From Litorilinea aerophila (lineage in GTDB: Bacteria > Chloroflexota > Anaerolineae > Caldilineales > Caldilineaceae), in the NCBI GenBank assembly GCA_945897075.1, contig CAMDEX010000041.1, forward strand, positions 1 through 32,885: a stretch of DNA of 32,885 nucleotides, given 5' to 3'. Position 1 is the first letter of the stretch. Every line of letters begins with the position of its first letter. Of the stretch, positions 4,127-19,867 are shown piece by piece. Below the pieces are notes generated by a model that saw nothing but the letters and a program-made list of their open reading frames with translations, made no database searches and had not been told where the DNA came from. The position numbers and the translations under genes are program-made.

Positions 4127-4375
4127 ATGTTTGCGATTCGGCAAATTCAAGCAGTGAAGTTCGGTGTAGTCACCATTGCTTTACCGGCAGCTTTTCAGGC
4201 AAAGCGCGTAGAAATCATCGTCTTGCCCATAGATGATCTAGATAATGAAATTCAGCAACCCCACCAGGCATTACAAAGCGTATTGTTGGCTGCACCTACC
4301 CTAACCGACGACGAACTAAGCGAATACGAGAACGTCCAGGAGTGGATGAATCAATGGCACGCGATAGACTTTTGA
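4127..4375 (+). CDS. VapB-like antitoxin of a PIN toxin-antitoxin pair
   Basis: This 82-aa protein is a presumed antitoxin. Its N-terminal half (VVTIALPAAFQAKRVEIIVLP) resembles short beta-hairpin antitoxins, and an acidic C-terminal tail (TLTDDELSEYENVQEWMNQW) could wrap the toxin. GGAG at 4115-4118, eight bases upstream, fixes the start; a longer in-frame reading from 4070 is rejected. Its last codons overlap the toxin gene by 22 bases, so translation is probably coupled. The family is assigned mostly from position and size. Confidence 0.7.
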   Translation: MFAIRQIQAVKFGVVTIALPAAFQAKRVEIIVLPIDDLDNEIQQPHQALQSVLLAAPTLTDDELSEYENVQEWMNQWHAIDF

Positions 4376-4749
4376 TTGATACGACAATTCTGATTGACCA
4401 CCTACGTAAACCTCAAAAAGACAGAACGCTCTTTTATCGGCTTTCTTTGCGCTTTGATTATGTCATAGCGGTTGTCACTGAATTTGAATTTTCCGTTGGA
4501 TCTTCTCCGAAAAACCACGATTTTGTCACAGCTTTGCTGACCCAAATACCCGTTCTTGTTTTGGATTCAGCCTGCATACAAACATCTGTCGAAATTTATC
4601 AGCGTCTAAAAGCAAGCAATCAACTTATCCCTCTGCCTGACATTTTTATTGCAGCTACTGCAATCACGCATAACCTGCCGTTGCTTACACTAAATCAAAA
4701 GCATTTCGCTCGGATTATCCAATTGAAACTTTACCAAGAGGGAGATTAA
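4354..4749 (+). CDS. PIN-domain ribonuclease toxin, VapC-like
   Basis: This 131-aa protein is a predicted Mg-dependent RNase that would be held inactive by the antitoxin just upstream. The PIN acidic residues are visible: D9 in LLIDTT, E43/E45 in VTEFEF, and D96 in LPDIFIAATA; the usual fourth acid near the C-terminus is replaced by Asn in TLNQKHF. The length fits VapC. An in-frame GTG at 4342 is possible, but AGGAG at 4338-4342 serves the ATG at 4354 better. The coding region is visibly more AT-rich than its neighbours, which fits horizontal transfer. Confidence 0.85.
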   Translation: MARDRLLIDTTILIDHLRKPQKDRTLFYRLSLRFDYVIAVVTEFEFSVGSSPKNHDFVTALLTQIPVLVLDSACIQTSVEIYQRLKASNQLIPLPDIFIAATAITHNLPLLTLNQKHFARIIQLKLYQEGD

Positions 4750-10379: not shown

Positions 10380-11018
10380 ATGACCATCCGCATCCATCTG
10401 TTCTTCTTTTTTCTGTTGCTGATCGCGCTGGCTGGCTGCGGGTCTGCCCCTGTGCCGACGCCCGCGCCCGCGCCCGCGCCCGCGCCAACTACCCAATCCG
10501 CGGCGCTGCCCGCGCCACCGGACTCGGCCATCCCCACCCCGCCCGACACCGCAGACGAAGAGTTGCTCACCGGCCCAGGCGAAGGCACCCCGGATGTCTA
10601 CGTGGCACGGGCAGCGCTTGCCAAAGCTGATCTGGCCGCTTTTCTCAAAACCACGACCACGCAACTGGAGCGGCTCAACCCGAACCTGCCCGACCCCATC
10701 CCCGCCGACACGCTGCTGACTGTGCCCCTGGATTATATCACCGGGGAGGGCGAGACGCTGGACGCGGTGGCCGCGCGTACGGGGCTGGCCGCGGCCATTC
10801 TGCGCCTCGCCAATCCGACAGTCGGCAGCCAGGCGATTCTGCCCGCCGCGACGCGTCTGTTGATGCCCCGCCTCTTTGTGGTCTACCAGCCCACGCCACT
10901 GGCGGAAATCGCCGCCCTTCTGACGACAACCCCAGAAACGCTGCTCGCCTTCAACCCGGAATGGGCCGGGGTGGAGACGATTCCCGCGGATGGTGTGCTG
11001 GTTGTGCCGTTCAAGTGA
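10380..11018 (+). CDS. LysM-like lipoprotein
   Basis: This 212-aa protein has a lipoprotein signal (LLLIALAGCGS) and a Pro/Ala linker made of repeated CCCGCG hexamers. Three LysM-like units follow: one with FLKTTTTQLERLNPNLPDP, one with GEGETLDAVAARTGL...LRLANP, and one with PLAEIAALLTTTPETLLAFN. The G-x-T/L-x-x-I-A and L-x-x-x-N-P patterns are typical of LysM, which binds peptidoglycan glycans. Each unit is divergent, so binding is inferred. It opens the envelope gene block; the protease gene downstream has its own promoter-like box. Confidence 0.75.
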   Translation: MTIRIHLFFFFLLLIALAGCGSAPVPTPAPAPAPAPTTQSAALPAPPDSAIPTPPDTADEELLTGPGEGTPDVYVARAALAKADLAAFLKTTTTQLERLNPNLPDPIPADTLLTVPLDYITGEGETLDAVAARTGLAAAILRLANPTVGSQAILPAATRLLMPRLFVVYQPTPLAEIAALLTTTPETLLAFNPEWAGVETIPADGVLVVPFK

Positions 11019-11047
11019 GCGACGTTTCCCTTTTCTTCAACTTGGGT

Positions 11048-11084
11048 TATAATCGCCGTAGGTCGGACTGCCAGTCCGACCTAC
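11048..11084 (+). promoter_or_regulatory. TATAAT box followed by a perfect palindrome (leader hairpin)
   Basis: TATAAT (11048-11053) is a perfect -10 box with a weak TTTCCC 17 bases upstream (11025-11030). Almost immediately downstream, 11058-11084 forms a perfect 12-bp stem (GTAGGTCGGACT with its complement) around a 3-base loop. If transcription starts near 11060, the hairpin would form at the very 5' end of the protease message, or the palindrome is a dispersed repeat that landed there. Confidence 0.5.
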
Positions 11085-11110
11085 AAACCCACCCCCAGCG
11101 GGATTCTGCG

Positions 11111-12835
11111 ATGAAGCCCACCTATTCCATCCGAACAGTCGTCTTTGCTGCCATTGCCCTGGCCCTTCTGGCCGGGATTGTGACGCGCCAGGCCGCGGCC
11201 CAGGCCCGCATAGACCTGGACGTGAAGCGGGCGGTAGTGCGTATTGTGCCGGAGCGCTGCTTTGGCGGGACGAGTTGCCGGCCCCAGAACGACCAGCCGG
11301 GCAGCGGTGTCATTGTCCACCCCAGCGGGCTGATTCTGACTGCCTGGCATGTACTCTCGGCGGACAAAGATTTTCAGCAGGAAAACTATTGGGATGATTT
11401 TGTGATCGAGATGATCGACGAGGACGACGGCGTGCCGCCTGTGCCCCGCTACCGGGCCAGAATTGTGGCAACCCGGCCGGATATGGACCTGGCGCTTCTG
11501 CGTATCGACCGCGACTCAAATGGGCAAGCGGTGACAGACGAAGCACTGGCAGCCTTGCCCTGGCTGGCTGTCTACGAGGGGTTGAGCAATCAATTGGAAT
11601 CGGGCAACACCCAACTGCACATTTTGGGCTATCCCAAACCGCCTCTGCCCACCGACCCGACGACTCTTTCTACCAATCAGAATTTGAGTCTGAACCGGCG
11701 CAACCGGCCTGCTGCGGAGTTGGAAGTGCAATTGCCCTTTGACAAAGGCTACAGCGGTGGCCCCGCCCTGACCCAGCGCGAGGGCGCGTTGCAGGTGACG
11801 GGCATTGTGCTGGCATCGGTGGGCAACCGCACAAAGCTGCGCGATTTGAGCGTCGCTTTCCGGGAATTCGATTGGGTGGCCGCGCAACAGCAGGTCTATG
11901 CGGACAATATCTTCGTGACCCAAACCGCGGCAAATGGGATGCCCTTCATTCAATTTGACGCCGATGTACAGGCATTGGGGTTGGAGAACGTCCCCCTGCA
12001 ATTTCAGATCAGCTTTTTTGAAGCAAATAGCCACCTACCCTGGCAACCTGCGGTTGTGGACCTGCCCCAATTCGACAATCGCCAGGTCTACTGGCTGGAA
12101 AATCTACGCCCGGATCGTCCTGTCTACCACCGCACTTTGCGGGTTCTGATTCCTATGGGCGGCGTAGATATCCCGCCCGATCAATTGGCCTTTCGTCTGA
12201 AACTGGCACGGGAAGATGATTCCGTCCAACTGTGGAGCGACAACCGCTGGTATCAGGCCCAGCCCGGCGCGGTTGCACCGAGCGACCCACCTGCAACCAC
12301 ATCTACTCGGACACCGACGCACACGCCTACCCGCCGTTTACCGACATCAACGCATACGGCGACGCAGCAAGTGACGGCAACCCCTACAAACTCACCTTCG
12401 CCGACGCGAGAGCCACTCACAAACACACTTACTCCGACTCCGACATATACGCGGATATTGCTTCCGCCAACCAGTACGCCGACTCAAATACCGACACCTA
12501 CGCCTTTGCCAGTCTATGAGCCATACGTGATCATCGATAGCCATAGATATGAAGTCTCGGCAACCGGCACGATTGAGTTCAATGCCCAGGCACAAACACT
12601 ACTCCGTATCGAAATTGTCCTGCAAGACCCCATAGGAAATAACCTGTCGCCCGGATTGGCTACCTATCAATGGACGTTTGCCCCTGCGGACCCGGAAAAC
12701 GCCGAGCGAGTAGGCACGGGCAACAATGTGCTGAACTATACTGTCCCTAGCGATCGACGGGCACAGTTGGTAATTGTCGTAGTTGAGACAGCTGGCTTCC
12801 GAAAAGAGGTCCACATTCGAATTCTAATCGGCTGA
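11111..12835 (+). CDS. Secreted trypsin-like serine protease with Thr/Pro linker and C-terminal Ig-like domain
   Basis: This 574-aa protein has a signal peptide (cleavage expected near AAAQA, residue 31). The chymotrypsin-fold protease domain has a visible triad: H80 in LTAWHVL, D126 in DMDLALLRID, and S215 in KGYSGGPAL. A beta-rich middle region (about 275-390) and a long Thr/Pro linker follow. The last 105 residues contain YQWTFAP, GTGNNVLNYTVP and LVIVVVETAG, the same pattern as the Ig/PKD-like domain of the four lipoproteins downstream. The start at 11111 gives a proper signal peptide; a longer frame from 10961 overlaps the previous gene and is rejected. It may process or be displayed with the lipoproteins (inference). 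Confidence 0.88.
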   Translation: MKPTYSIRTVVFAAIALALLAGIVTRQAAAQARIDLDVKRAVVRIVPERCFGGTSCRPQNDQPGSGVIVHPSGLILTAWHVLSADKDFQQENYWDDFVIEMIDEDDGVPPVPRYRARIVATRPDMDLALLRIDRDSNGQAVTDEALAALPWLAVYEGLSNQLESGNTQLHILGYPKPPLPTDPTTLSTNQNLSLNRRNRPAAELEVQLPFDKGYSGGPALTQREGALQVTGIVLASVGNRTKLRDLSVAFREFDWVAAQQQVYADNIFVTQTAANGMPFIQFDADVQALGLENVPLQFQISFFEANSHLPWQPAVVDLPQFDNRQVYWLENLRPDRPVYHRTLRVLIPMGGVDIPPDQLAFRLKLAREDDSVQLWSDNRWYQAQPGAVAPSDPPATTSTRTPTHTPTRRLPTSTHTATQQVTATPTNSPSPTREPLTNTLTPTPTYTRILLPPTSTPTQIPTPTPLPVYEPYVIIDSHRYEVSATGTIEFNAQAQTLLRIEIVLQDPIGNNLSPGLATYQWTFAPADPENAERVGTGNNVLNYTVPSDRRAQLVIVVVETAGFRKEVHIRILIG

Positions 12836-12889
12836 ACTCGCGACCGCTGATGCAAAGGCATAGGCGATCAAACAGATGAGGGAGAAAAT

Positions 12890-13756
12890 ATGTTCCAGGT
12901 CATTCGGTTCGATCGTGTAGGCATCGTTCTTTGTGCTGGCGTACTGGCTCTTTTTCTAAACGCATGTGTTGCCGGACAACCTCTGGCCCTGGCACCGGCT
13001 GCTGCACCCACTCCGATCGTCGGTGAACCGGTTGTTAGCGTATCCCAACCAGTTGAACCCGGCGAACGGATCGGTATTTCAGTCAGGGTTGACAGTGTTC
13101 CCGGAGTTGCGATCATTTACGAATGGTCCGTCTTTGCGGGAACGATTCTCGAAGGGCAAGGTACGAATGCCATCACCTACGAAGCACCTGCTGAACCGGA
13201 CACATATGGTATTCGGGTGAAGGTCAGTACTCAAGATGCGATAATCGAACGCAGTTCGTTTGTCACGGTGCTTGAAGTACAAACGCTTGAATCTATACCA
13301 GCGAGCATACCAACCGCGGCATTAACACCGGTCAATACACCGACACAGTTGTCTGTAGCTACACCAATTCCTGACGTAATCGCAACACGAGCTACACCGC
13401 AACCGAGTTTTTCTGGGTACTGTTTTGGAATATGCTGGCAATATGACGAAGGTGCCCGGACGATGACGTGGATAGGTCCAATAGATGGTCGAGAAGACAT
13501 TTGGCAAGGTGATTCAACCTCTTTGAGCAGAATTCGCAGCGGTTGGACAGCTATTTTTGGACCTGTCAGCGTGCCTGGAGAAATTGAGGCATGTATACTT
13601 ATTCTCAGTGGTCAAATGATATTCAATACCTGTGATGGTATGAAGTCTCCATATCCGGCTGAAGCTAACAGACTTTATCAAGCCACTTCAGAAAATCCAG
13701 ATGTTGGAGGCTTTCGCTGGAAACCGGCAAAAGGATACGGGTATCGGGCAAATTAA
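12890..13756 (+). CDS. Lipoprotein paralogue 1: Ig/PKD-like stalk with unique tip
   Basis: This 288-aa lipoprotein has its lipobox LNAC with the lipid Cys at residue 26. The shared domain spans about residues 45-130: EPVVSVSQPVEPGERIGISV, then IIYEWSV, GQGTNAITYEAP and ERSSFVTV. A Thr/Pro linker follows, then a unique tip of about 110 residues with Cys pairs (GYCFGICWQ, EACILIL, NTCDGM). GAGGGAG just upstream supports the start. It lies 54 bases after the protease gene. The tip is not recognised. Confidence 0.85.
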   Translation: MFQVIRFDRVGIVLCAGVLALFLNACVAGQPLALAPAAAPTPIVGEPVVSVSQPVEPGERIGISVRVDSVPGVAIIYEWSVFAGTILEGQGTNAITYEAPAEPDTYGIRVKVSTQDAIIERSSFVTVLEVQTLESIPASIPTAALTPVNTPTQLSVATPIPDVIATRATPQPSFSGYCFGICWQYDEGARTMTWIGPIDGREDIWQGDSTSLSRIRSGWTAIFGPVSVPGEIEACILILSGQMIFNTCDGMKSPYPAEANRLYQATSENPDVGGFRWKPAKGYGYRAN

Positions 13757-13795
13757 CCACGGATGGCGATTCAATTATTTTCCAGGAGCGAAGCG

Positions 13796-15073
13796 ATGTT
13801 GCACTTTGTCCACGATTTCCAATTCAGGAATGCCCTATTTATCGGAATTTTGCTGTTGGTTTCGACAGGTTGTGTTCCAGTGCAACCTGTTGTACAGATG
13901 TCAACAGCAGTACCTACTCCTACAGTAACACCCACTCCTACAATAGCACCCACTCCTGTTGTCAACGAACCCGTTGTCAGCGTACCCCAACCCGTTAATC
14001 CGGGCGAGCAGATCGGCATCTCGATCAGAGTGGATAGCGTTGCCGGTGTAGAGCTTTCCTACGAGTGGAGTGTACTGGAAGGACAAGGCGAAATTTTGGC
14101 AGGCCAGGGCACAAATGCTATCACCTACGAACCTCCTGTAGAACCGGGGACATACGGGATTCGGGTCAAAGTCACGACAACAAATGCGGTTATAGAACGC
14201 AGTACGTTTGTCACCGTACTAAGCCCTGATATTCCCGCTCCTTTATCAATGATCACGCCCTCTGCCACATTGACCCATAGCGTCAATGTCAATGAGACCA
14301 TCCAACCGACAGTTGTAGTCACACCGGCATCATTATCTACTTTTTGTCCTGATACAATTGCCCGAGATACGATTTCGACATGGGATATCGGTGCCACAGA
14401 GATAGACAACGTTCAGCCATATTTGGATGCTTTCGAAAGCCACCGCAAGAGAGGCGGTGGTTTCGTAAAAGGGGATACTATTCCAGTTGGGGTTATTATC
14501 ACTACAGACTTCGGGAATGGGCAGAGTGAAGCGTGGGAAATATATCCAGTAAAACCGATAATCCATTTTCGAAGTTGGGGTCTCTTTGAAGTAACACGTA
14601 GCTTTTCCGCTCCATCTGAAGGTTCTTGCATTACCATATCGCCACCCACAGACACACTGACAACCGTCCCCTTAGCTGATGAAGTTACCATCTGTGGCGA
14701 TGCCGCGTTTGCCGAGGGTCTAGCGACCTCTGATCCGCTTTTCTCGAGTCCGAACGGATACGTGTCGGGTTGGATTACCTCAGATCCTGCGACCGTAACT
14801 TTACCTGACGGCGATACTAGGGTTTTCGAGTTCCAGTATGTCTTGATTGTCGAGGATTTACCGTTTGTGCAAGTGACAGGGGTGGTACGTCATGCCGGCA
14901 AGGCAAATACTGGTGGTTGCTGGTATCCATCAAGCCTGTCGCAGTACATTTTTGAAGACGCCAAGCAGGATTTTTGCGTGAAGAAAACAGGCGGCAATGT
15001 GGCTGTCTTCTATCGAGTCAGTGCATCCGGTTTCGAGGAACTAGGCACAACTGCAACCATTTCGTGCCCATGA
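13796..15073 (+). CDS. Lipoprotein paralogue 2: Ig/PKD-like stalk with long double tip
   Basis: At 425 aa this is the longest of the four. The lipid Cys is residue 26 (VSTGC). A TPT-repeat linker leads to the shared domain (about 58-142; SYEWSVLEGQG, GQGTNAITYEPP, ERSTFVTV). The C-terminal part appears to hold two beta-rich modules: one around TWDIGATEIDNVQPYLDAFE and one from about 290 with VTICGDAAFAEGLA...CWYPSSLSQ...DFCVKK. Neither is recognised. AGGAG seven bases upstream selects the ATG at 13796 over 13763. The gap from paralogue 1 is 39 bases. Confidence 0.85.
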   Translation: MLHFVHDFQFRNALFIGILLLVSTGCVPVQPVVQMSTAVPTPTVTPTPTIAPTPVVNEPVVSVPQPVNPGEQIGISIRVDSVAGVELSYEWSVLEGQGEILAGQGTNAITYEPPVEPGTYGIRVKVTTTNAVIERSTFVTVLSPDIPAPLSMITPSATLTHSVNVNETIQPTVVVTPASLSTFCPDTIARDTISTWDIGATEIDNVQPYLDAFESHRKRGGGFVKGDTIPVGVIITTDFGNGQSEAWEIYPVKPIIHFRSWGLFEVTRSFSAPSEGSCITISPPTDTLTTVPLADEVTICGDAAFAEGLATSDPLFSSPNGYVSGWITSDPATVTLPDGDTRVFEFQYVLIVEDLPFVQVTGVVRHAGKANTGGCWYPSSLSQYIFEDAKQDFCVKKTGGNVAVFYRVSASGFEELGTTATISCP

Positions 15074-15130
15074 ACTGAGTTGATCACATCGGAATTATCG
15101 GCTGACGTTCGGTATTCTAAAGGGGGCGCA

Positions 15131-16075
15131 ATGTTTACTTCTGTTTACCTGTGGTGCTTCAGGACTTTCCTTCTCTTGGCGTTTCTAGGGATGTTGGCGG
15201 CAGGATGCACCATTGGACAACCACTTGCGACGATGCCCACTTCGGCACCAACTCCTGTCGTCAGTGAGCCAGCGATCAGTGTGCCGCTGCCAGTCGAACC
15301 AGGCGAACAAATAGGCGTCTCGATACGGGTCGATAGCGTTGCCGGTATGGACATTGCTTACGAGTGGATTCCATCAGAAGGCACAGGAACGATCCTGCAA
15401 GGCCAGGGCACCAATGCGATTACGTATCAGGCTCCTGCTGAACCCGGCACGTACAGCATACGGGCCAAAGTTACAACTGCTGACGCCGTTATCGAACGCA
15501 GTACATTTATCACTGTCCACGAAGTGGAAACGCCTAGAGCTATGTCCGCTGATACGCCCACTGCGGCATCAACTTTGATACCTACTATCCTCACACCAAC
15601 TGCCTCCTCAATCACGGCAGAGGCACCTACGCCGATTTCCACCAAGCAAGTATCGCCTGAAAATGATGCGGGACCAGTTCGGGAACACCAAACTGTGGCT
15701 ATTGGTTCAGGACCCCTGATGACAGCAACATTCTCCGATGGCCTTGCTCCGTACACTGAGACAGAGTTGGGTGCCAATTACTACCGTATTCAGCGTATCC
15801 GACTTCAAGAGAATCCAGATGGGTGTGACACATCCATTTATGACACAAACAAAGTGTGGTTTGGCTCGGGAGTTCGAACTTCGATCACCGTCAACGATGT
15901 GCCAATTGCAGAATTGAAGGTAGCAACAGGCAAGCACGGCTACATTTTTGACTGGCCGATCCGCGTTGGCGACAAAATATGTGTCACCGATCCTCATCCT
16001 GCTGGTTTTGCGATAGTTTTTGGTCCAGATATGTTTTATCACTACGATAGCTACTGTTATCGGGGACAATGTTGA
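15131..16075 (+). CDS. Lipoprotein paralogue 3: Ig/PKD-like stalk with unique tip
   Basis: This 314-aa lipoprotein has its lipid Cys at residue 26 (LAAGC). The shared domain (about 45-130) includes AYEWIPSEG, GQGTNAITYQAPAEPGTYSI and ERSTFITV. After a Thr/Pro/Ala linker comes a tip of about 135 residues containing NYYRIQRIRLQENPDGCDTS, FDWPIRVGDKICVTDPHP and a final YCYRGQC; it is beta-rich, with four Cys. It is not recognised. An AAAGGGGG stretch precedes the ATG at 15131, and a reading from 15080 would spoil the signal peptide. Confidence 0.85.
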   Translation: MFTSVYLWCFRTFLLLAFLGMLAAGCTIGQPLATMPTSAPTPVVSEPAISVPLPVEPGEQIGVSIRVDSVAGMDIAYEWIPSEGTGTILQGQGTNAITYQAPAEPGTYSIRAKVTTADAVIERSTFITVHEVETPRAMSADTPTAASTLIPTILTPTASSITAEAPTPISTKQVSPENDAGPVREHQTVAIGSGPLMTATFSDGLAPYTETELGANYYRIQRIRLQENPDGCDTSIYDTNKVWFGSGVRTSITVNDVPIAELKVATGKHGYIFDWPIRVGDKICVTDPHPAGFAIVFGPDMFYHYDSYCYRGQC

Positions 16076-16112
16076 TGTCATCGTAGCAGAACATCGAATA
16101 AAGGAGGAAGCA

Positions 16113-16931
16113 ATGTTTCACGTTACCCATATATTTCGAGTGTCCATCATTTTACTGGCCGGAACACTGCTGGTGGCATTGACCGCATGTGTAGCCGGCC
16201 AGCCTATGGCGCTGGCACCCATTACAGCGCCCACGCCTGTCGTGAGCGAACCTGTCATCAGCGTGCCCCAACCTGTGAATCCTGGCGAGCTGATCGGTGT
16301 CTCAATCCGAGTGGATAGCGTTGCTGGTGTGATTATCACCTATGAGTGGACTCCGCCTGTCGATAGAGGAGCGATCTTGGATGGCCAGGGCACCAATGCG
16401 ATTACGTATCAGACTCCTGCTGAACCCGGAACATATAGTATAGGGGCCAAAGTCATCACTGCCAATGCGGTCATTGAACGCAGTGTTTTCGTCACTGTGC
16501 GCGAGACGAATGCTTCCACACCTCCACTGGCTACGGCTTTACCAACCAAAGCGCCTGTATTGCCAACACCGGTGCTGCCAAAGTTAGTACAAAGAACTGA
16601 CATTCTGCCTAATGGCGAAGTCGCATCTCCCGAATCGCTTGCCAGATTTGTTGGTGGCGATCCTGTGTATTGGACGAAGCGAGGTCCGGTAGTATGGGGA
16701 TATTGGGACAAAGGTCACAATGCAACATTTCGCCACCCTGGTGGTAATACCATATTGACTTATTGGGCAGGATTTCCCGATCCGAGAAATGCCGGTGATT
16801 GTCAAATGGTCATTCCCGAAGCCGATAGTTTGACTAGATATGTGAAGTGTCCCCCTGAAACAGCAGCAGAATTTGAGGCGGATGGGGTAGGAATTCATCT
16901 GATCGACTACACGGGATATTTTCCAAGATAA
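16113..16931 (+). CDS. Lipoprotein paralogue 4: Ig/PKD-like stalk with unique tip
   Basis: This 272-aa lipoprotein has its lipid Cys at residue 26 (LTAC). The shared domain (about 45-130) includes TYEWTPP, GQGTNAITYQTPAEPGTYSI and ERSVFVTV. The tip (about 160-272) has VYWTKRGPVVWGYWDKGHNA, DCQMVIPEADS and a Trp/Tyr-rich composition that could suit ligand binding; it has two Cys. It is not recognised. AAGGAGG at 16101-16107 selects the ATG at 16113. Its stalk DNA is nearly identical to that of paralogue 3 over the GQGTNAITY region. Confidence 0.85.
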   Translation: MFHVTHIFRVSIILLAGTLLVALTACVAGQPMALAPITAPTPVVSEPVISVPQPVNPGELIGVSIRVDSVAGVIITYEWTPPVDRGAILDGQGTNAITYQTPAEPGTYSIGAKVITANAVIERSVFVTVRETNASTPPLATALPTKAPVLPTPVLPKLVQRTDILPNGEVASPESLARFVGGDPVYWTKRGPVVWGYWDKGHNATFRHPGGNTILTYWAGFPDPRNAGDCQMVIPEADSLTRYVKCPPETAAEFEADGVGIHLIDYTGYFPR

Positions 16932-17081
16932 CCTCAGCGGGTGAGACATTTGGTCGTTCTCACGCCGGGTGTGGGCTGCAAATACTTTGACTGGGTTGAG
17001 TTTGTAGGTTCACTATATGAGTCATTGACTTATGAATGATCATGGTTTCGTTCATAATGGGAAACAGGGCGGGGGTGAAAT

Positions 17082-18896
17082 GTGCCCGACGACAGTAAAA
17101 ACCGTACCACTTCTTACCAATCCGCCCAAGAAGTCCAGGGCAATCAACAGAATATAAGCGGCGGCGATATAGACGGCCCGGTGGTGAGCGGCAATGTGGG
17201 GCAGATTGGTGACATCACTACCACCACTACCAGCACTACCACACACAATTACAATCTCTTCCCCCCATTGACCCGCCGCCAATGGATAAGCGCCGGGCTG
17301 GCTTTTCTCGTTTTGTTCCTGTGTCTTGCCGTCTACGCCACTCGCACCCTCTGGCTACCCCAACCCCATTGCCCCGCAAACCAAACCTGCCTGATCATCG
17401 CCGCCTTTGGCCCCGCCAACGAACCCAAAGCCATCGAAATCACCACTGCCCTGGAACAGGAATTGCGCCAGGTATTGGACGCAGCCGGCGCAGCCGACGT
17501 GGCGATTGTGCAGGTGCGCGAGGTGGCCGACAGTCAGGCTGCCAGAGCCGTGGCCGCCGAGGAAGGCGCACTGCTGGTTATCTGGGGCACAGTCTTTCCA
17601 GCGGAAGGCAAGACCCGCATCTATTTTGAACTGGCCGACCGCCTGGGCGTGGGCGAGAGCGGGCAGATTCGCCCCTACCGGGCCGAGCCTCTGCGCTACG
17701 ACCCGGTGGCCGAACGCATCGAATGTACAGCCTGCATTGACATCGCGGGCGAAGTGACCCGGCGCACCCACGTCATCGCCTGGTTTGCCCTGGGGCTGGC
17801 CCGTTACGCAGCGGGTCAACCCGAAGCAGCCCAACCTAACTTTCTGGCCGCGCTCTTCTGCGCGGGGGAAGAGGTGGATGGGGCTTTGCTTCCCGTCCGT
17901 CCCGACTGCACGCCGTCTGCCGCTCCCGACCCCAGCCAGACGGCGCTGATCCGCTACTATCTGGGCAAGTCTTTTGTCCTGCAAGGGGAGTACCGTCAGG
18001 GCATCGCCGCCTTGACCGCCGCTGCCCAGGCCAACCCCAACGACCCCGCGGCCTGGATTGCCATCGGCGAAGCCTACACCAACTGGTACGGCGACGCACT
18101 TCCCAACCCGCCCGCGGCCCAGGACGCTTTTACCAAAGCCGCAACAGCCGCCCACGCCCTCTCCCCGGTCGTCTTCGCAACGCAGCGCGCCTTTGCCTTG
18201 GGGCTGATCTACGAGTTGCAGGGCGATCCCGCTGCGGCTGCCTCTGCATACGCGGCGGTCATCGCAGGCTTTGCCGCCGACGATCCTGGCGCGTATGTCT
18301 CTCTAGTGGCCCTGGCCCGCGCCCAGACGCAGGCTGATCAACGGGACGAGGCAGAAGCAAATCTGCGCAAGACCACAGACCTGCTGCTCAACGCGCCCTG
18401 GGCATATTTGGCACTGGCCCGTCTGCTGGCGGATGACCGGGCGGCGGCAGAGGCGCTCATCGAACAGGCGCGGGCGGCTGCGCCCACCGAAGCCTACATC
18501 GCCATCACCCAAGCCGAATTGTGCGCGGGTTGGGGGGATCGGGCGTGCGCCGAGGAAGCCTACACAGCGGCGTTGGCCCTGCGCCCCAATTCCGGTTGGC
18601 TGTACAGCCGGGTGGGGGATTTCTATTTGCCCACAGATCCGCCCGTAGCCGGGCAAAGCTGGGAAGAGGCCGAACGCCACTACCGCAAAGCTGTGGAATT
18701 GCGCCCGGCAGACCCGTGGGTACACCAGCGGCTGGGCTATGTGCTGCTCAATCTGCAAAAGAACGCCGAGGCGGCCGCCGAATACGAGACGGCCATCGCC
18801 CTCCTCCCCGATGACCTGCCGCCGGGCGAACTGGCCTGCACCCTCGCCCTGGCCCAGGAGCGCGCCCATCTGCCGGTCACCGCGGCGTGTCCGTAG
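17082..18896 (+). CDS. Membrane-anchored TPR protein with TolB/CsgG-like domain
   Basis: This 604-aa protein starts at GTG with GGGGGTGA just upstream. Residues 1-65 are polar and Gly/Asn/Thr-rich (QGNQQNISGGDIDGPVVSGN, then a Thr run). One membrane helix follows (about 67-90, WISAGLAFLVLFLCLAVYAT). The segment after it, with LIIAAFGPANEPKAIEIT, ALEQELRQVL and EEGALLVIWGTVFPAEGKTR, resembles the TolB/CsgG-like alpha/beta domain found before TPRs in some signalling proteins. The rest is TPR repeats, the clearest being ERHYRKAVELRPADPWVHQR. Its last 85 codons recur at 20323-20578 beside a kinase gene. It is a likely scaffold or sensor, with function unknown. Confidence 0.85.
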   Translation: MPDDSKNRTTSYQSAQEVQGNQQNISGGDIDGPVVSGNVGQIGDITTTTTSTTTHNYNLFPPLTRRQWISAGLAFLVLFLCLAVYATRTLWLPQPHCPANQTCLIIAAFGPANEPKAIEITTALEQELRQVLDAAGAADVAIVQVREVADSQAARAVAAEEGALLVIWGTVFPAEGKTRIYFELADRLGVGESGQIRPYRAEPLRYDPVAERIECTACIDIAGEVTRRTHVIAWFALGLARYAAGQPEAAQPNFLAALFCAGEEVDGALLPVRPDCTPSAAPDPSQTALIRYYLGKSFVLQGEYRQGIAALTAAAQANPNDPAAWIAIGEAYTNWYGDALPNPPAAQDAFTKAATAAHALSPVVFATQRAFALGLIYELQGDPAAAASAYAAVIAGFAADDPGAYVSLVALARAQTQADQRDEAEANLRKTTDLLLNAPWAYLALARLLADDRAAAEALIEQARAAAPTEAYIAITQAELCAGWGDRACAEEAYTAALALRPNSGWLYSRVGDFYLPTDPPVAGQSWEEAERHYRKAVELRPADPWVHQRLGYVLLNLQKNAEAAAEYETAIALLPDDLPPGELACTLALAQERAHLPVTAACP

Positions 18897-18900
18897 CTGG

Positions 18901-19193: not shown

Positions 19194-19433
19194 ATGATTG
19201 CGCAAACAATTACAGTTGACGAGGCCGGACGCATTACTTTGCCTGAAACAATCCTTCGTGCTTTGCGTTTGCAGCCCAAGCTAGAGGTGGTGATCGAATT
19301 GGTTGAGGGCGGGGCCGTCATAAAGCCCAAGCATCCCAAGACCCCAATTACCGAACGGATTGCGGCGATGAACCTGCCAGTCGCTCACTGGAAACAGATG
19401 GAGCACGAAATTGAAGCGGGGCGGTTAGAGTGA
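19194..19433 (+). CDS. AbrB/MazE-type antitoxin, VapB-like
   Basis: This 79-aa antitoxin has an N-terminal swapped-hairpin DNA-binding domain: TITVDEAGRITLPETILRAL is the classic AbrB/MazE pattern. The C-terminal part (ITERIAAMNLPVAHWKQMEH) should bind the toxin. GGAGG at 19184-19188 selects the ATG at 19194 over one at 19176. Its stop TGA shares one base with the toxin ATG. A 36-bp stretch of this gene (19343-19378) is repeated exactly at 20278-20313. Confidence 0.85.
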   Translation: MIAQTITVDEAGRITLPETILRALRLQPKLEVVIELVEGGAVIKPKHPKTPITERIAAMNLPVAHWKQMEHEIEAGRLE

Positions 19434-19867
19434 TGGCAGATATCATCTTTCTCGATACCAATATTTTCATGTATGCAGCCGGCGCATCACATCCTTACAA
19501 AGAGCCTTGTGTACGGATTTTGTCCGATATAGAGAGTGGGGCTTTGGTAGCTGCTATCAATACTGAAGTCTTCCAAGAGCTACTCTATCGCTATAGCCAT
19601 ATCAAACTGGCTGATAAGGGTGTGCGGCTGTGTCGGGAAATTTTGAACTATTCCCTTACCATTTTGCCCGTGACAGAAGCCGATATTCGACTTGCAATCG
19701 AGCTATTTGATGCCCACCGCGCGAAGGGATTGGGGCCACGGGACGCGATTCACGCCGCGACTATGCAAAACAATGATATTTCTCGGCTGATGAGTACCGA
19801 TACGGATTTCCGATACCTGAGTTTTATTACTCGTATAGACCCATTGGATTACACATCTCAGTGTTAG
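19433..19867 (+). CDS. PIN-domain ribonuclease toxin, VapC-like
   Basis: This 144-aa protein is a predicted RNase toxin paired with the AbrB-type antitoxin upstream. PIN residues are D8 (FLDTN), E45 (NTEVFQEL), D104 (GPRDAIHAAT) and D123/D125 (STDTDF), so the active site looks complete, unlike that of the first pair. The start overlaps the antitoxin stop (TGATG), which implies coupled translation. Confidence 0.88.
   Translation: MADIIFLDTNIFMYAAGASHPYKEPCVRILSDIESGALVAAINTEVFQELLYRYSHIKLADKGVRLCREILNYSLTILPVTEADIRLAIELFDAHRAKGLGPRDAIHAATMQNNDISRLMSTDTDFRYLSFITRIDPLDYTSQC

Follow-up and report, generated by a model that had tools for sequence, protein, structure and literature searches.

Four tandem lipoproteins of Litorilinea aerophila with a common stalk and dissimilar, putatively exchangeable tips

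What brings together, in one run of genes, four lipoproteins that share an anchor and a stalk and end in tips that bear no resemblance to one another? The question is raised by a stretch of 32,885 nucleotides from Litorilinea aerophila (Chloroflexota, Caldilineaceae; NCBI GenBank assembly GCA_945897075.1, contig CAMDEX010000041.1), hereafter the window, that makes up the whole of contig C41 of a draft genome of 6.4 Mb (G000 in our genome set). Our comparisons suggest that the four are surface lipoproteins in which a lineage-specific stalk and a linker present C-terminal modules that can be exchanged and that come from a pool extending over the Chloroflexota, and that these tips would serve as recognition modules; taken as a whole, we regard this account as rather probable. 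Its two parts differ in standing: the distribution of related sequences gives good support to an exchange of tips as modules, and a role of the tips as binders or receptors is plausible.

Layout and anchor of the four lipoproteins

The four genes lie head to tail on the forward strand at 12890-13756, 13796-15073, 15131-16075 and 16113-16931 (starts set at the signal peptides), are spaced by 39, 57 and 37 bases, and encode lipoproteins 1 to 4 of 288, 425, 314 and 272 residues, respectively. Lipoprotein 1 consists of a signal peptide, a cysteine at residue 26, an immunoglobulin (Ig)/PKD-like stalk, a Thr/Pro linker and tip 1; lipoproteins 2, 3 and 4 have the same anchor and stalk and end in tips 2a and 2b, tip 3 and tip 4. 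The signal peptide and Cys26, present in all four, would place the proteins outside the cell with a surface anchor, judging from the sequence only. Three of the four match the usual lipobox; that of lipoprotein 1 reads ALFLNAC, with Asn at position -2, which is atypical for a lipobox. Gene coordinates and translations thus bear out the initial annotation, made from the DNA letters alone, that there are four tandem lipoproteins, each with Cys26, at gaps of 37-57 bases; its further description of a common Ig/PKD-like stalk, a Thr/Pro linker and dissimilar, cysteine-bearing tips agrees with the alignment, stalk model and shuffle tests given below.

The lipoprotein genes have a G+C content of 49-51%, versus 57% for the whole window. 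Over positions 10900-18900, G+C declines across the upstream gene of a trypsin-like protease from about 62% to 53%, is near 50% over the four lipoproteins, and reaches 65% in the downstream gene of a TPR protein. No mobile element lies between the lipoprotein genes, and a scan for promoters and terminators returned sites that were no commoner than in shuffled sequence. The listed contamination of the assembly is 8.8%; the contig belongs to this genome because the genes flanking the array are syntenic with those of congeneric genomes. The genomes with G numbers that served for comparison are drafts of uneven quality.

A lineage-specific stalk

The stalk, 87 residues long, is encoded at 13022-13282 in lipoprotein 1 (the copy used for alignment, structure model and fold matches) and at 13958-14221, 15260-15523 and 16242-16505 in lipoproteins 2, 3 and 4 (used for alignment), all on the forward strand. 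The four-stalk alignment holds about 50 invariant columns out of 88, with a mean column identity of 79% and a lineage-specific signature, GQGTNAITY...ERSxFVTV. Pfam scores remain below the curated cut-offs (PKD_6, 23.1 bits versus 25; PKD, 21.1 versus 23.5). The AlphaFold model is a beta-sandwich with a predicted local distance difference test score (pLDDT) of 89; its structural neighbours in the PDB are Ig/PKD domains, among them the ColG PKD domain 4tn9 (Z 9.1, root-mean-square deviation 2.5 over 79 residues). The stalk is therefore predicted to be an Ig/PKD-type beta-sandwich, as had been supposed from its sequence.

Synonymous divergence (dS) between the stalks amounts to 1.5 or more, close to or at saturation, with a ratio of nonsynonymous to synonymous divergence (dN/dS) of about 0.09-0.15; the four thus separated long ago as paralogues, rather than by recent duplication, and have been kept under strong purifying selection. 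A search with a profile of the stalks, which the initial annotation had proposed as a way to collect further neighbourhoods, was run and yielded none: in its own genome the profile matches only these four places, among 45 relatives of the family it has no match, and in a set of 100 genomes it gives one weak match among the genomes of the class. A scan of 84,980 genomes returned only short matches of 35-64%, in Bacteroidota and others, that resemble generic PKD domains. As far as sampled, the stalk appears to be private to the lineage of this genome. The notion that it anchors a genome-wide repertoire was rejected, since its own genome has no copies beyond these four and the 45 family genomes have none.

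Tips and their relatives on other anchors

The tips are encoded, again on the forward strand, at 13406-13753 (tip 1), 14342-14647 and 14669-15070 (modules 2a and 2b), 15650-16072 (tip 3, with the motif ...GPDxxYHYDSYCYRGxC) and 16587-16928 (tip 4). Tip 2 is counted as two modules because each half is found alone elsewhere. Tips 1, 2, 3 and 4 hold 4, 6, 4 and 2 cysteines. Once freed of linkers, no pair of tips aligns clearly above shuffled sequence; the best score, between 2b and 4, was equalled by 29 of 1000 shuffles, which is not significant for ten pairs. An apparent homology between the tips of lipoproteins 1 and 3 (0 of 300 shuffles) was traced to the Thr/Pro linker and vanished upon its removal. 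None of the tips matched a family in Pfam, NCBIfam or PADLOC, toxins included, nor a known adhesive domain in Pfam or NCBIfam. Profile searches of the PDB with tips 3 and 2a gave nothing credible (a match of tip 3 to a gamma-tubulin complex spans 22 residues only), and a single-sequence model of tip 3, at a pLDDT of 36, has no usable fold.

Relatives of the tips were sought in the same genome, the family, 396 genomes of the class, a sample of the phylum, viral contigs and plasmids. All tip families recur in other Chloroflexota, and never on the stalk of the window. Tip 1 has a relative of about 50% identity on a transmembrane and Thr/Pro anchor in G015, a member of the same family. Tip 2a is carried by secreted beta-helix proteins (G176 and G015), by transmembrane anchors (G217 and G724) and by the LGFP-like stalk of a secreted protein in Candidatus (Ca.) Chlorohelix. 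Tip 2b is found at 58% identity in a lipoprotein of G065 with another stalk, which we call 'NCGG', and in G174 as a frame-broken copy. Tip 3 has relatives in its own genome, G221, G688, G120, G189 and Ca. Chlorohelix, all on other anchors and, across the phylum, at 41-58% identity; the relative in its own genome (contig C2 of G000, L083 7806-9233) is a lipoprotein that combines tip 3 with the 'NCGG' stalk and a PASTA domain. Tip 4 has a relative of 55% identity on a transmembrane anchor in G602. The 'NCGG' stalk, which matches no Pfam family, is joined to tip 2b or tip 3 in lipoproteins or in a transmembrane protein, and is common to such proteins in several Chloroflexota families (L083, L084, L085, L086, L144); its members are related by the shuffle test, the link to G120 being the weakest.

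The distribution is patchy. Eleven of the 396 class genomes, our own included, hold a tip match at E<=1e-4, and none of six congeners has any tip. A set of 249 class genomes gave no relatives of tips 1 and 4; the former was found in the full family, the latter in the phylum sample. Viral contigs searched with tips 2a, 3 and 4 contained no relative, and among plasmids only that of Ca. Chlorohelix was matched. A weak match of tip 3 in G075 was not counted, as it falls in a repeat-rich region of a surface protein. This patchiness, together with the changed anchors, is what an exchange of modules predicts. Two further observations concern relatives of tip 3: a copy of a tip 3 protein in G326 (L104 7724-8760), near a DUF559-like gene, has decayed and contains several stops, and in G120 (L085 1-2430) open reading frames made of repeat units, which by appearance only resemble a CRISPR array, lie upstream of the gene of the tip 3 lipoprotein.

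A second array on an unrelated stalk

An independent array is found on the plasmid NZ_CP128401.1 of Ca. Chlorohelix allophototropha. It comprises four secreted proteins (OZ401_RS23120, RS23125, RS23130 and RS23140, the last set apart from the other three by a kinase gene) amid Ser/Thr kinases, a PP2C phosphatase and a kinase-FGE protein. The LGFP-like stalks of the array are 90-96% identical, with dS of 0.3-0.8, and the four tips are mutually unrelated; two of them belong to families of the window, namely families 3 and 2a with one tip each. A gradual divergence is hard to reconcile with this array, since its stalks are near-identical and its tips are without similarity. The comparison suggests that a single stalk was copied and fitted with different tips, or else that such fusions came first and the stalks were then made alike by gene conversion. 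The LGFP-like stalk has 55 matching places in the Ca. Chlorohelix genome. At 330-360 kb of the plasmid (L140, L141) a second cluster of such stalks has long NHL-like repeat ends, with transposase-like genes in between.

Flanking genes and the variable slot in congeners

Upstream of the array, on the same strand, lie a LysM-domain lipoprotein (10380-11018; Pfam LysM, E 1.7e-4) and a secreted trypsin-like protease (11111-12835; Trypsin_2, E 1.7e-12) that ends 54 bases before lipoprotein 1; downstream, a membrane protein with TPR repeats (17082-18896, forward strand) forms the other border of what we call the slot. The protease has catalytic motifs (TAWHV, DMDLALL and GYSGGP), a Thr/Pro linker and an Ig/PKD-like C-terminal tip. 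That end domain and the stalk may share a remote ancestry: the best pair was equalled by 1 of 1000 shuffles, at an hhalign probability of only 17%. Two PIN-domain genes flank the region (4342-4749 and 19430-19867) and probably represent toxin-antitoxin modules.

The LysM lipoprotein, the trypsin and the TPR protein make up a chassis that is kept in three congeneric genomes (G005, G002 and G006) and, in a more distant form, in G010; the LysM lipoproteins next to the trypsin are 66-86% identical in the former and 35% in the latter. The trypsins of the window genome, G005, G002 and G006 align up to about residue 384 and then diverge in the linker, to end in a PKD-like domain in the window, an FGE domain in G005, an unmatched domain in G002 and a repeated Ig-like region in G006; in G010 the tip consists of SH3 and FGE domains. 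The initial annotation had suggested that the locus be compared in relatives for a turnover of tips at constant stalks. What could be seen is that the C-terminal tips of the neighbouring trypsin differ across four congeneric genomes; for the lipoproteins there was no relative with the stalk. In the slot that separates the trypsin gene from the TPR gene, only the window has the four lipoproteins. In G005 the slot holds a diversity-generating retroelement (DGR) and a DUF559 gene, in G002 a DUF559-like gene (by similarity to that of G005) and in G006 nothing recognised.

The DGR of the sister species G005 (reverse strand, within 71000-90000 of contig C23) includes a reverse transcriptase (RT; RVT_1, E 4e-19), the accessory protein Avd (bAvd, E 1.6e-20) and an FGE target (E 2.7e-63). 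Its template repeat (TR) lies 1.7 kb from the variable repeat in the FGE tip of the trypsin, and all 17 mismatches between the two fall at adenines of the TR. It is intact-looking and, judged from the sequence, complete, and would diversify the trypsin tip. Compared with the RT, Avd and TR of G005, the window gave no significant match. A DGR in the window as the source of the window's tips was rejected, there being no RT, Avd or TR. In G010, the TPR region of the orthologue (C491, 3211-5679, reverse strand) is linked by a transmembrane segment to an N-terminal TIR domain, and the N-terminus of the window orthologue differs.

Proposed exchange of tips and the alternatives

In the account we favour, the anchor-stalk part was probably duplicated and new tips were joined to it at the linker, giving rise to the array. 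The Thr/Pro linker would be flexible and would hold out the tip modules on the stalk; the lipoproteins would be exposed at the surface, and their tips might bind external targets such as phage, competitors, polymers or the surfaces of kin. The same function of surface recognition may extend to the trypsin and to the TPR membrane protein, which sometimes has a TIR domain. The initial idea of a conserved anchor with a variable tip gains from the finding of the tip families on other anchors and of a second array on an unrelated stalk that shares two of them; a turnover of tips at the constant stalk of the window did not come to light. Nor does any relative carry the same four proteins unchanged.

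Several points weigh against exchangeable recognition modules. The tips match no characterised domain, and some could have enzymatic, inhibitory or structural roles. No turnover of tips was observed on the stalk itself, as no relative with the stalk occurs among the genomes searched; the stalks are old paralogues, so that the array is not one that is being rapidly re-assembled now. The relatives of the tips elsewhere are mostly single genes without a common neighbouring system, and the DGR belongs to a sister species, where it acts on the trypsin rather than on lipoproteins.

The array could instead be the sensor of an anti-phage or allorecognition conflict system, in which the trypsin would provide the switch, by proteolysis, and the TPR/TIR membrane protein would pass on the signal. 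In its favour, G005 has at the corresponding locus a DGR that would diversify the FGE tip of the trypsin, the TPR orthologue of G010 bears a TIR domain, the trypsin weakly matches protease models of PADLOC, and FGE tips with a DGR, trypsin and TIR are parts of proposed conflict systems (PMC10907252, PMC7159879). However, the window genes scanned (a subset of its open reading frames) include no STAND, MoxR/vWA, VMAP or EAD, the trypsin here is secreted, the relatives of the tips have no consistent link to defence genes, and the four lipoproteins are present in one genome only; we therefore judge this account unlikely. Quite improbable, in our estimate, is a set of ordinary accessory paralogues, in which one gene was duplicated and the C-terminal halves diverged past recognition in unrelated housekeeping or nutrient-binding roles, with no exchange of tips. 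The nearly or fully saturated dS of the stalks would have left time enough for such divergence, and the genes are not separated by any mobile element; yet tip 3 retains 41-58% identity with relatives in the phylum and shares nothing with its neighbours in the array, the near-identical stalks of Ca. Chlorohelix carry unrelated tips, and the same tips on other anchors largely refute the idea. Delivery of the tips as lipoprotein-borne toxins to neighbouring cells, in favour of which the conserved lipoprotein N-terminus, unrelated C-termini and shared pool of C-terminal domains agree with what has been reported of SitA and further polymorphic toxins (PMC5562445), is very improbable, as no immunity gene stands between or directly after the lipoproteins (the gaps of 37-57 bases are followed by the TPR protein), no toxin family is among the libraries' matches, and the relatives include secreted beta-helix and transmembrane-anchored proteins without evident partner genes.

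Set in the wider phylum, the account of exchangeable tips would make the array one part of a combinatorial repertoire of extracellular recognition modules in which tips pass between stalk families, with domain exchange and DGR mutation as alternatives at one immune-like or self-recognition locus; this larger proposition we hold to be doubtful. What the locus offers in any case is five uncharacterised families of extracellular modules (1, 2a, 2b, 3 and 4) that sit on differing anchors across the phylum and have no match in the family libraries searched, and two independent arrays, each on a stalk unrelated to the other. Should the tips prove to be binders, they would amount to a naturally occurring set of small surface domains that can be interchanged. 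With the orthologous slot of the sister species and its DGR, domain exchange and targeted hypermutation can be compared directly as sources of diversity in surface recognition.

Comparison with known systems

The stalk itself resembles the PKD/Ig-like stalks (PF00801, PF19408; the PKD domain of ColG, PDB 4tn9 and 2y72) in its predicted beta-sandwich, with a Z of about 9 to the collagenase PKD domain, and differs from the Pfam PKD families in its sub-cut-off scores and its lineage-specific signature. With SitA of myxobacteria (PMC5562445) the window has in common one lipoprotein anchor, unrelated C-termini and a pool of domains shared with other forms of delivery; unlike SitA, it has no immunity genes and no known toxin domain, and its four genes stand in one run without partners. 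Fibrillar adhesin-like proteins (PMC8286594, PMC9210967) are likewise extracellular and surface-anchored, with an Ig-like stalk, a terminal region and shuffling of stalk and tip domains, and a single stalk domain is allowed among them (PMC8286594, PMC9210967). The lipoproteins of the window differ from them in being short, with one stalk domain, no known adhesive domain and tip families that are not in Pfam, and in forming a tandem of four that share a stalk and bear unrelated tips. The last likeness is with FGE/CLec sensors diversified by DGRs and accompanied by trypsin and TIR effectors (PMC10907252, PMC7159879): at the orthologous locus of the sister species the FGE tip of the trypsin is apparently diversified by a DGR, and a TIR-TPR protein stands beside the trypsin in G010. 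DGR-diversified conflict systems with such components have been proposed for multicellular bacteria (PMC10907252, PMC7159879). The window differs from these sensors in that it lacks RT, Avd and TR, shows no NTPase switch among the genes scanned and has a secreted trypsin, and in that the diversity of its lipoproteins would stem from the exchange of whole modules.

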